From Alphaproteobacteria bacterium (lineage in GTDB: Bacteria > Pseudomonadota > Alphaproteobacteria > Rhizobiales > GCA-2746425), in contig JANSWZ010000001.1 in assembly GCA_024743215.1 (NCBI GenBank), positions 434,001-498,000 of the forward strand: a DNA stretch of 64,000 nucleotides, given 5' to 3'. Positions within the stretch are counted from its first letter, which is position 1; the number at the start of each line of letters is the position of its first letter. Of this stretch, positions 33,900 to 36,893 are shown piece by piece. The notes below the pieces were generated by a model. That model worked only from the letters and a program-made list of their open reading frames with translations, was not told where the DNA came from and made no database searches. Made by a program: the position numbers and the translations under genes.

Positions 33900-34679
33900 C
33901 TAAACGTCGATTAAACCAAGAAAGATGCTTCTGGCAACAGCATGTGTCTTATTACCAGCCTGAAGCTTCTCCATAGCATTCTTTATATGGGTATCAATTG
34001 TCTCTGTTGAAATAGATAAAATGCTTGCTGTTTCAGCGGCCGTTTTGCCTCGGCTTGCCCATGACAGCACTTCGCGTTCACGATCAGTCAGGCGCGTGGT
34101 TTCGAATGCCTGTTCCCGTCGGCTGAAGGGTATTACTTCGCCGCTGCTTTTGCCGATCTCCCGAATCCGCATGAGCTCCTGCATCCAATAGATCAGAATG
34201 ACATGGAGGATGTGGCGCATATCTTCGATGTGTTGGTACAGGCGCGTTGGCTTTTCATGCCAGAACAAGGTGCAGACACAGGAGCGCATCCGACCAATGT
34301 CATCGACAAAATGGAACGGTATGACGAGCCCTTCCTGAAAGCCATAATCCATGGCGGCTTCCATGAGCTTGTGGGCACCAGGTTTTCTTTTCCCTGTTCT
34401 TTGCGGAAGCGGCACGCTTGCCCACAGGAAGGGCACATTCGTTCTGCGAGCGGTCTTGAGACATTCATCAATCAAGATAAAATCGTTTGAGGCATAGTCG
34501 ACCTCCCATCCGCTGCCCGTCGTTCCGACGTAGAAGGGGTCGATCTTGCCGGGCATTCCACCATCCAGAAAGCAGAATGCGGCAAATCCGAAATCATTCA
34601 CAATGGTGTTGAGGACAGCAACCAACTGGTCCTGAGAAGAACATCTTTCGATGTCAGATATTGCCTTCTCAAGTTTCAT
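33900..34679 (-). CDS. LuxR-type autoinducer-binding transcriptional regulator
   Basis: A 259-residue protein (264 if the in-frame ATG at 34694 is used; 34679 is preferred because GGTGAG lies seven bases upstream). The N-terminal autoinducer-binding domain (about 10-165) keeps the ligand-site pattern: in the longer numbering W63 and Y67 (GWEVDY), D76 and W91 (PFLW). The residue after the aspartate is Glu rather than the usual Pro. The C-terminal LuxR helix-turn-helix spans about 190-255 (LTDREREVLSWASRGKTAAETASILSIS). It is divergent from an acyl-homoserine-lactone synthase gene and should be its cognate receptor. Confidence 0.9.
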   Translation of the reverse strand: MKLEKAISDIERCSSQDQLVAVLNTIVNDFGFAAFCFLDGGMPGKIDPFYVGTTGSGWEVDYASNDFILIDECLKTARRTNVPFLWASVPLPQRTGKRKPGAHKLMEAAMDYGFQEGLVIPFHFVDDIGRMRSCVCTLFWHEKPTRLYQHIEDMRHILHVILIYWMQELMRIREIGKSSGEVIPFSRREQAFETTRLTDREREVLSWASRGKTAAETASILSISTETIDTHIKNAMEKLQAGNKTHAVARSIFLGLIDV

Positions 34680-34689
34680 TTCAAAACTC

Positions 34690-34707
34690 ACCATTTATCG
34701 GGATGGT
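34690..34707. promoter_or_regulatory. lux-box-like inverted repeat between luxR and luxI genes
   Basis: ACCAT (34690-34694) and ATGGT (34703-34707) are separated by 8 nt, an 18-bp palindrome of the size of tra or lux boxes. It lies just upstream of the preferred luxR start and 55 nt before the preferred luxI start. The arms are short and no match to a specific consensus is claimed. Confidence 0.35.
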
Positions 34708-34761
34708 TATTAGCTAGCATAAATCGTTATGTCTCACCATAGCTGCTGGCGGGAGGCGACC

Positions 34762-35436
34762 TTGCTTTTAACAGGTACTTCAAATTCAGATTCAGACATA
34801 CGCATTGTCATCGGAACTGCAGAAAACGCCAGTCAGGATGTCATTGATGTGATGGCGTTTCGCAAACGTATTCTGGTTGATTCACTTGGTTGGGACCTCA
34901 CGGTCACCGATGGTTTGGAGCAAGATGAATTTGACCGGGCTGACACCGTGCATTGTGCGGTTTGGAACAAGGAAACATTGGTTGGATCGTTTCGAGCTAT
35001 CAGAGCTGACAGGACTTATCTCGCTGCAGAAAAATTTCATCATCTCGCCACACTCAAATCTTATCCGGATGACGAAAACAGTTGGGAGATCAGCCGTTTT
35101 GTTGTCGCCATGGGCAAGCGACGATTCTCATATGCCCTGACGACCTATGCCTCTATGTTTCGCTTTGCCTTTGCCATGAATGCCGATCGTCTTGTTGCGT
35201 TTTCAGACCTGTCCCATGAGCGCTTGCTATCGCGTATCGGGATTGTAACCGAACGCTATGGTCCCCCTTTTGAAATCGGAATTGATGCCGTGGGTAGACC
35301 GGTCAAGGTGGTGTCTGGAGAAATTTCCATCGCTGCACAATCGGGTTCCCGATTTCTTCAGCTTTTGTCTCACGTCAATCCTTTGGAGGAGTCTGATGTA
35401 TATTCCTTACCGCGACGTCGCAGCCTTTCGGCGTGA
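34762..35436 (+). CDS. luxI: Acyl-homoserine-lactone synthase (LuxI family)
   Basis: A 224-residue protein if it starts at TTG 34762, which has GGGAGG five bases upstream. An ATG at 34729 with no ribosome site would add 11 residues. In the longer numbering the LuxI catalytic residues are R45, W55 (DSLGWDL), D66 and D69 (QDEFDR), R89 (VGSFRAIR), E120 and R123 (WEISRFVV). It makes an N-acyl-homoserine lactone from SAM and an acyl-ACP or acyl-CoA; the acyl chain cannot be read from sequence. It is divergent from a luxR gene and its 3' end overlaps a cytochrome P450 gene by 41 nt, so the P450 is very probably co-expressed. Confidence 0.9.
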   Translation: MLLTGTSNSDSDIRIVIGTAENASQDVIDVMAFRKRILVDSLGWDLTVTDGLEQDEFDRADTVHCAVWNKETLVGSFRAIRADRTYLAAEKFHHLATLKSYPDDENSWEISRFVVAMGKRRFSYALTTYASMFRFAFAMNADRLVAFSDLSHERLLSRIGIVTERYGPPFEIGIDAVGRPVKVVSGEISIAAQSGSRFLQLLSHVNPLEESDVYSLPRRRSLSA

Positions 35437-36691
35437 CCCTCTGACATTGCTAAGCAGCAAGGCTCAGGCGGGGGACCAGGGTTTTGTGCCTCTGGCTCTT
35501 GGGGTGCGCCCGATCCATTTGTGCAATGGAGCAACCACAGCCCGGTCAATCTTGAAATGGCCGACCACGGAACTGGATAAGGGGTCCTTGGTTCAGCGTT
35601 TGCGCCCCATTATGGGAGAAAGCTTGCTGACCAATAATGGAGAGGCTCACAAGGCTTCGAAAGCAGCTATTCACAGACACCTTCAACGCAATGCCATTTC
35701 TGGCAACATCGACAAAATGATTGCGGTCGTAAATGGTTACATTGCAGCGTTGTCATCAGAAAGCAGCTTCCGCCCGGTCTCGATCTCTGCACCTCTTGCG
35801 CTGCAGATGGGCGCGACTGCTTTGTTTGGGCACGACGTCCTGGGCGCTGCTGATCGCATGGCGCTGATTGAGGCTGTTCAGACGGTGGAAGCCGAGCTTG
35901 CAGATGATATGTTTCGCGTGTTGCCAAACGGCCCCAGAAAAGCGGCGGAAAGAACCAAACGTATTGATACTGCTCGGGAAATTGTTGGCGCTGTCATCAA
36001 CAGGGCACGTGCCAATGACAACAAATCGCCATTGTTGATTGCGTTGGAAGAGGCTGGTTTGGATGACGAGCAGGTCAATGCGGAACTGCTTGGGTTGTTG
36101 ATTGCCGGGCATCACACAACTGGCGCATCAATTGCCTGGATGCTTTACCAAATGGCGCTTGATCCTGCGCTTGCGGATGTACTGGCCTATGAGGCGGATG
36201 GTGTCATGGACGCCTTGGAAAAAGGCGAGTCCAGTGCTCTGCGCCGAGCACCATTGAGCGAAGCTTTTGTCAAGGAAACCTTGCGGGTTTACCCTGCCGG
36301 ATGGTGGACTTCACGAGAGTTTTTGCTGCCAGTTGAAGTCGAGGGCATGCGTTTTCGTCGGGGGGATATGGTGATGATCAGTCCGTGGACCCTGCATAAG
36401 GATCCGCGCAATTGGGAGCAGCCGGAAGAATTCAGGCTTGATCGTGATTATTCACACCCATCCTATATGCCATTTGGTGTGGGTGGCAGATCGTGCATTG
36501 GCATGGCCATCGCATTATTTGAACTGCAACTGGTGGCGCTGCAATTTGCATCTGCCTTCAACATGTCCGGCACATTTTCTGCAGAAGAGATGGTGCCGAT
36601 TCCATCTATTACGCTGTTGGCACCAGATCATGAACTTGGCCTGGCAGTCCGGGACGAACGCAGGTTCAAAAACCGTATGGCGGTGGCCTGA
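35396..36691 (+). CDS. Cytochrome P450
   Basis: A 431-residue P450 with all defining motifs: the I-helix oxygen-activation segment AGHHTTGASIAW (near residue 240), the K-helix ExxR in ETLRVYP, the meander PEEFRLDRD, and the haem loop FGVGGRSCIG with the ligand cysteine. No fused reductase or ferredoxin domain and no membrane anchor are seen, so it needs separate electron donors, none of which is adjacent. ATG at 35396 follows GGAGGA inside the end of luxI, giving a 41-nt overlap in a different frame. A 66-residue gene follows after 1 nt. The P450 may act on the homoserine-lactone signal or on a quorum-controlled product; this is inference from linkage. Confidence 0.92.
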   Translation: MYIPYRDVAAFRRDPLTLLSSKAQAGDQGFVPLALGVRPIHLCNGATTARSILKWPTTELDKGSLVQRLRPIMGESLLTNNGEAHKASKAAIHRHLQRNAISGNIDKMIAVVNGYIAALSSESSFRPVSISAPLALQMGATALFGHDVLGAADRMALIEAVQTVEAELADDMFRVLPNGPRKAAERTKRIDTAREIVGAVINRARANDNKSPLLIALEEAGLDDEQVNAELLGLLIAGHHTTGASIAWMLYQMALDPALADVLAYEADGVMDALEKGESSALRRAPLSEAFVKETLRVYPAGWWTSREFLLPVEVEGMRFRRGDMVMISPWTLHKDPRNWEQPEEFRLDRDYSHPSYMPFGVGGRSCIGMAIALFELQLVALQFASAFNMSGTFSAEEMVPIPSITLLAPDHELGLAVRDERRFKNRMAVA

Positions 36692-36692
36692 T

Positions 36693-36893
36693 ATGCGGGA
36701 ATCCAACCTTGATCTGCGCGATTTCATCGATCGTTACAGCGATGAATACAAACAACGGAAAGCCCTGTTGGCCATTCTGGAGTACGCGATTTCAGAAACA
36801 ACGGATCTGGATCCAGATGCTGCGCGTCACCTGGAAACCGCGAAGTTGATGATTGCCTCAAAAATTACGTCAGAATTGGTGATGAAGCACTAG
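36693..36893 (+). CDS. Small protein of unknown function downstream of the P450
   Basis: A 66-residue soluble protein, mostly predicted helical and charged (DFIDRYSDEYKQRKALLAIL, then TDLDPDAARHLETAKLMIAS). It resembles no family I recognise. The ATG lies one base after the P450 stop. It appears to be the last gene of a luxI-P450-orphan operon. A role as a partner or regulator of the P450 is possible but not shown; it could also be a chance open frame, although the tight spacing argues for a gene. Confidence 0.6.
   Translation: MRESNLDLRDFIDRYSDEYKQRKALLAILEYAISETTDLDPDAARHLETAKLMIASKITSELVMKH

Follow-up and report, generated by a model that had tools for sequence, protein, structure and literature searches.

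What is a cytochrome P450 gene doing inside a quorum-sensing locus, begun within the coding sequence of the signal synthase itself? The question is raised by a four-gene cassette in a stretch of 64,000 nucleotides (the window; positions 434,001 to 498,000 of contig JANSWZ010000001.1, assembly GCA_024743215.1) from a member of the Rhizobiales. The cassette consists of a luxR-type receptor gene, a divergent luxI-type gene for an acyl-homoserine lactone (AHL) synthase, a P450 gene and a gene for a protein of 66 residues. The reading favoured here, to which we give a probability of about two in three, is that LuxR, LuxI and the P450 form a three-component circuit in which the P450 oxidises the acyl chain of the AHL or of its acyl donor. 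The genes and junctions of the cassette are the following.

33900..34694, minus strand: luxR-type receptor, 264 amino acids, divergent from luxI (Pfam Autoind_bind, 2.6e-12; GerE, 3.7e-16)
34762..35436, plus strand: luxI-type AHL synthase, 224 amino acids, TTG start (Pfam Autoind_synth, 1e-17)
35385..35390, plus strand: GGAGGA within luxI, likely ribosome-binding site of the P450 gene (from the sequence)
35396..35436, plus strand: overlap of luxI and the P450 gene, 41 nt, with the P450 ATG at 35396 inside luxI
35396..36691, plus strand: cytochrome P450 of the GHHT I-helix subfamily, 431 amino acids (Pfam p450, 3.9e-43, 148 bits)
36693..36893, plus strand: 66-residue protein, predicted helical hairpin, starting 1 nt past the P450 stop codon

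This arrangement had been described in an initial annotation, and the coordinates and Pfam domains agree with it; the overlap of 41 nt with GGAGGA inside luxI and the start of the small open reading frame (ORF) 1 nt after the P450 stop are likewise present in the sequence. The start codon of luxI is most likely TTG 34762 rather than ATG 34729 (which would give 235 amino acids), because GGAGG-N5-TTG is kept in three congeneric species, the upstream ATG is absent in one of the three, and a 1-nt indel separates the two positions when congeners are compared. The four-gene cassette is under purifying selection: the ratio of nonsynonymous to synonymous substitution rates (dN/dS) between congeners is 0.04-0.13 for all four genes, as calculated for the ten of twelve gene pairs with finite dS (dS being saturated in the other two), and these ratios are rough because several dS values exceed 1. 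It is on account of this range, and of conservation across genomes, that the cassette is regarded as more than a chance assembly.

The first evidence for a unit comes from the genus itself. luxI and this P450 gene are both present in three of its five genomes and both absent in the remaining two, so that they are present or absent together in five of five. The initial annotation had named absence of the P450 beside luxI in all close relatives as a refutation, and this is not what is seen, as two of the four congeners carry the cassette. In the window the cassette occupies the spacer between dnaJ and a lipoprotein gene, and it was at this site only that the genomes without it (G001 and G002) were examined for luxR and the small gene. 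The G002 spacer keeps a decayed luxR 3' end (L142:3160-3372; 47.7% identity over 44 codons) in which the reading frames are interrupted by stops, and the one P450 of this genome is of another kind, encoded elsewhere with no luxI nearby. In the G001 spacer (171 nt) no luxR remnant was visible. The cassette was thus likely lost from G002, with the luxR remnant as its scar.

Outside the genus, homologues of the window P450 were identified in nine of 297 genomes of the order using the protein itself as query, and in 11 of 397 using a nine-row profile (A1), both at E<=1e-60. luxI overlaps the P450 gene upstream in all ten of these order genomes that have upstream DNA, the eleventh (G134) being cut by a contig end. 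The overlap is exactly 41 nt in nine of eleven measured cassettes (eight of ten in the order draw, plus a Bradyrhizobium japonicum plasmid), and is 44 nt in G043 and 140 nt in G367. A divergent luxR is present in the plasmid copy and in all nine of the ten order cassettes that reach that far; the contig of G043 ends within luxI, so that its luxR side lies outside the sequence. In the class draw, profile matches at E<=1e-60 occurred in five of 384 non-own genomes, and luxI was located within 1.5 kb of the P450 in four of them. The junctions here are an overlap of 1 nt in G665, an overlap of 4 nt in G612 and a gap of 16 nt in G439, lengths that depend on the start codons chosen. When 398 genomes of the phylum were sampled, the sole matches at E<=1e-60 were the window and G439; therefore the P450 subfamily looks alphaproteobacterial, and at six non-alphaproteobacterial luxI loci no P450 was found with the window-family hidden Markov model (HMM). 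A plasmid search returned three records at E<=1e-30 (B. japonicum, Methylosinus and Niallia). The B. japonicum copy is annotated as acyl-homoserine-lactone synthase and cytochrome P450, while the Niallia protein is distant (25% identity). The nearest named cassette bearers found are B. japonicum and, with a decayed copy, Methylosinus.

These data bear on the alternative that linkage is due to common descent or chance neighbourhood without any functional partnership. Several of the cassettes do share one ancestor, and the counts above are for that reason not independent. Against it, the junction is kept at P450 identities of only 34-41% to the window protein outside the genus, luxI has become associated with P450s of at least two lineages and by gene fusion as well (both described below), and the two genes come and go together within the genus. 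This alternative is accordingly regarded as very improbable. The search for co-occurrence of LuxI and P450 across alphaproteobacteria, which the initial annotation had proposed, has shown that the linkage recurs in the order, in the class and as a fusion, and supports the view that selection keeps the signal synthase and the P450 together as a unit.

One form of this association is a single protein:

L091:1367-3466, minus strand, and L149:2575-4671, plus strand: P450-LuxI single protein, 699 amino acids, in two species of one genus

In G543 the P450 spans residues 57-468 and the LuxI domain residues 494-644 of a single frame of 699 amino acids. The fusion is intact in G785, a second species of the same genus (95% identity), where a divergent luxR precedes the fusion gene; it was found in two of 17 genomes of the family, in that one genus. 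The fusion P450 falls on another branch of the P450 tree than that of the window, suggesting repeated origin or re-establishment of the pairing of LuxI with a P450.

How common such pairs are was estimated from the luxI side. Among 385 genomes of the class, 59 had PF00765 matches, 77 in all. With a window-family HMM for the P450 calls, ten of 76 non-own luxI loci (11 of 77 with the window) have a P450, either fused or as a same-strand frame no more than 300 nt downstream. In the sequence covered at the 76 non-own loci, no P450 was found upstream of luxI or on the opposite strand. Four of the 76 (L043, L057, L076 and L094) have less than 400 nt after luxI and were counted as having no P450. In a Pfam scan of luxI-downstream ORFs, which took in the 44 of 74 ORFs with 100 or more amino acids, p450 was the commonest family (seven), followed by PhyH, Autoind_bind and two AAA families with three each; the 30 shorter ORFs were left out. 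One ORF was taken per locus, the longest with a start between -120 and +250 nt, which in G579 and G599 was not the P450. At these two loci and in G530 (L150, L151 and L152, respectively) luxR is in tandem and more than 100 nt precede the P450 frame, a looser pairing. On a Ramlibacter contig (L013:5110-6684), two luxI-like frames lie side by side on opposite strands.

In a maximum-likelihood LuxI tree of 86 rows (L115 left out), the 21 P450-linked rows require six changes, versus 19.1 when labels are shuffled, and none of 500 shuffles was as low. Of the 21, 17 fall in a single clade of 18 rows that is moderately supported (86/91). The sole unlinked row of this clade is G641, whose sequence is cut 199 nt after luxI. 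In this genome luxI lies close to the end of its contig, while a second contig has a P450 frame opening at its base 82 (L154 and L155; contigs C190 and C218), and this P450 groups with the luxI-linked P450s. The pair may have been split by assembly; the frame opens after a stop codon and not at the contig edge. In the P450 tree of 34 rows, with a background of ten rows picked by similarity (nine from the fusion search plus G741), the linked label requires three changes, at least two of them forced by well-supported branches.

Each of the three proteins was then compared with what such a circuit would need. The window LuxI scores 64.7 bits against Autoind_synth (curated cut-off 24), and its nearest solved structures are LasI (1ro5) and the AHL synthase 3p2f, which we take to be TofI; LasI and TofI use fatty acyl donors. 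Ten key positions were inspected, seven of which we take to be conserved residues of the family. Nine of the ten are kept, and the statement that all LuxI catalytic residues are intact was not borne out, the Phe28 position being Leu. The same Leu occurs in two cassette-bearing congeners, and Phe is found in eight of eleven cassette LuxIs. Arg24, Phe28 and Trp34 are the positions named as conserved LuxI residues in the text available of PMC3704786 (this and the other papers cited by PMC number are represented by parts of their text). The window LuxR has the autoinducer-binding and GerE domains and the pocket residues of an AHL-binding LuxR. The pocket positions (Trp, Tyr, Asp, Trp) are those of TraR; Tyr, Asp and the second Trp are invariant in all eight aligned receptors, the window's included (alignment A4), and the first Trp is present in seven, with Phe in one other receptor, which is not that of the window.

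The window P450 has the P450 domain and fold and keeps the ExxR and Cys-heme motifs (alignment A1). The claim that all P450 motifs are intact stands for these two and not for the I-helix, which reads AGHHT and departs from the canonical AG-x-[D/E]-T, an acid being usual where the cassette P450s have histidine. GHHT is invariant in nine of nine (A1) and ten of ten (A5) aligned cassette P450s, and ET stands at this site in luxI-linked P450s that do not belong to the cassette group. CYP51 shares the I-helix histidine. The predicted model has a predicted local distance difference test (pLDDT) score of 83.3, and its best fold matches are CYP184A1 with oleate, CYP51, CYP97A3 and P450 BM3 (CYP102A1, 18% identity in the fold match), the last being a fatty-acid enzyme of Bacillus that is fused to a reductase and not luxI-linked. 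Such modelled matches point weakly to a fatty-acyl substrate. The window genome carries one luxI and two P450 genes; the second (L145:3837-5039; G000:C12:967836-969038; 401 codons) is far from luxI, and genes resembling TRAP-type transporters by eye are near it.

The small protein had been called an orphan, a label that is not borne out, with moderate confidence, since probable relatives are encoded behind the P450 gene in other families. Its model is a two-helix hairpin (pLDDT 83.1) for which no PDB fold match was found at E<=0.001; in Pfam there was a sub-threshold match only, and in NCBIfam none. For the two congener pairs in which it could be computed, dN/dS is 0.09 and 0.13. Leave-one-out profiles were ranked against about 3,525 six-frame segments. 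The left-out member came first for the window genus (own, G003 and G004 at ranks 1-3), for G021, for G134 and for the tail of the G087 P450; G310 and G232 were at ranks 2-3 (E about 0.7) and G287 was ninth and unsupported. The E-values include 0.0065 for the window, 1.2 for G004 and 0.028 for the G087 tail; several are not significant alone, and the claim of kinship therefore also leans on position after the P450. G087 has a P450 frame of 497 amino acids (L021:8946-10439, plus strand) whose C-terminal stretch resembles the 66-residue protein, and profile A3, which was built without this stretch, recovers it from the locus at E 0.003, so that G087 probably encodes a fusion of P450 and small protein. 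By resemblance and position, the 66-residue protein probably belongs to a family of small proteins following this P450. The contigs of G665 and G700 end too soon to show such a gene.

In the proposed mechanism, LuxI would join an acyl chain to homoserine lactone, and the P450, co-translated with it, would oxidise that chain, after completion of the AHL or else at the stage of the acyl-carrier or coenzyme A donor, just before LuxI acts. Hydroxylation is one form that this could take, and an oxidation that results in desaturation or cleavage is another. The divergent LuxR would sense the oxidised product and drive expression of luxI and the P450 gene together, while the 66-residue helical hairpin would probably bind or stabilise the P450. 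No enzyme genes besides luxI and the P450 gene are found in the window operon, so that the simplest pathway needing both enzymes would be one in which the acyl moiety of the signal is oxidised. At the level of control the following candidate was identified:

34690..34707, strand not assigned: dyad ACCAT-N8-ATGGT where luxR starts, a lux-box-like candidate with the same sequence in three congeners

This dyad is weak as a palindrome and other sites scored above it in the dyad scan; the scan gave no defensible lux-box motif common to six intergenic regions, with good palindromes in some (G287 and the B. japonicum plasmid).

The P450 could instead make a separate small molecule, such as an oxidised fatty acid, under quorum control, the operon being shared because both products are needed at high cell density. 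Quorum-controlled enzymes are common, and a lone P450 can modify a metabolite of the general pool. A Bradyrhizobium locus discussed below is also described among secondary-metabolism and redox genes (PMC13136126, in the part available). This explanation is nevertheless thought unlikely: inspection by eye of 500 nt past the P450 at 11 loci showed no recurring enzyme gene (a small ORF is seen in part of them), the order-draw cassette P450s all have luxI wherever upstream sequence exists, and the P450-LuxI fusion and the conserved 41-nt overlap are better explained by a common pathway than by common regulation.

Several observations weigh against oxidation of the signal by the P450. At 66 of 76 non-own luxI loci there is no P450 by the window-family HMM, so that most luxI genes of the class draw do without one, and three of the ten P450-positive loci (G530, G630 and G711) are from one genus. 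The P450 of G741 (E 1e-62) has no luxI within 1.5 kb. That of G665 (L069:1500-2534) is only 333 amino acids long, has no heme motif and closes some 40 nt short of the end of its contig, which may reflect either a broken frame or an assembly fault; the luxI beside it looks whole. The Methylosinus plasmid P450 (L026:5337-7232) abuts IS66 genes, closes early and has no luxI, and is a decayed cassette. In a tree with ten background P450s, the P450 of the fusion and that of the window are no close relatives, and the two may differ in function. At five loci (G043, G367, G439, G612 and the B. japonicum plasmid) no small protein was found behind the P450, so that the scheme does not require it. The cassette has no ferredoxin genes and the 66-residue protein contains no cysteine. 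With 1655 PDB matches at E<=0.001, the fold likeness to P450s acting on fatty acids is generic, and the window LuxI has the Leu noted above at the Phe28 position.

The closest parallel among described systems is the R1-I1-crotonase circuit of Mesorhizobium japonicum, which like the cassette combines luxR, luxI and one tightly linked enzyme gene (PMC10470506). There the partner is a crotonase-superfamily enzyme encoded 8 bp after luxI, whereas in the window it is a P450 whose gene overlaps luxI; the word P450 is absent from the main text of that paper. Deletion of the crotonase gene left little signal (PMC10470506), so the enzyme is needed for normal signal, a role to which the putative one of the window P450 may be likened. 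In sphingomonads, luxR-luxI-phyH loci of several genomes also place luxI beside an oxygenase gene (PMC3704786, PMC4288048). PhyH belongs to an iron(II)-dependent oxygenase family, whereas the window gene matches Pfam p450 and not PhyH, and no signal role of PhyH is shown in the available parts of these two papers.

Oxidation of AHLs by P450s also has precedent, and it is here that the reverse role must be considered, namely that the P450 ends or limits the signal by oxidising the cell's own AHL so that LuxR can no longer bind it, a brake coupled to synthesis. BM3 (CYP102A1) oxidises AHLs near the chain end, at positions w-1 to w-3 (PMC3355433), and 40 of 48 single genes located between luxR and luxI encode the negative regulators RsaL or RsaM (PMC3386692). 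It can be argued, however, that coupled or fused synthesis and destruction would waste substrate, and the demonstrated precedent for a luxI-linked enzyme, that of Mesorhizobium, is biosynthetic. A brake is consequently held to be improbable. For a P450 that completes the signal, a candidate product type is provided by Maribius sp. MOLA 401, which makes polyhydroxylated AHLs and whose P450 (WP_036181863.1) has been hypothesised to oxidise their chains; no linkage of it to luxI is reported in the available text (PMC5479921, 2017).

The initial annotation had considered the cassette a candidate for an undescribed system, and this holds in part. The first luxI/luxR locus of Bradyrhizobium prioriisuperbiae BL16A (divergent, 77 bp apart; PMC13136126, 2026) is, judging by its published description, probably a cassette member printed under the name of a terpene enzyme, and the idea of an AHL-oxidising P450 is also in print (PMC5479921). 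The BL16A locus is described as a secondary-metabolism context; in the text available, conservation, overlap and a signal role are not noted and the word P450 does not occur. It is absent as well from the available text of the topology survey of 1,403 genomes (PMC3386692). A description of a conserved luxI-P450 cassette or fusion was not found among the literature matches listed, a weak negative given that subscription papers are mostly outside them.

Taken with the reading preferred here, of acyl-chain oxidation by the P450 on the AHL or its donor, the distribution of the cassette suggests that its alphaproteobacterial bearers make oxidised versions of the signal. The wider proposal is that such circuits are widespread in alphaproteobacteria, with a dedicated P450, co-translated or fused with LuxI and sometimes accompanied by a small helical partner, making the true signal, and that a new family of oxidised AHLs exists with matching LuxRs; for this we judge the chances to be even. 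AHL diversity is usually explained by the substrate choice of LuxI. A conserved LuxI-P450 pair would mean that some signals are also built by oxidation, giving private channels in crowded communities, and the luxI-P450 cassette is a genetic basis that may be sought for the polyhydroxylated AHLs of the marine Maribius strain.

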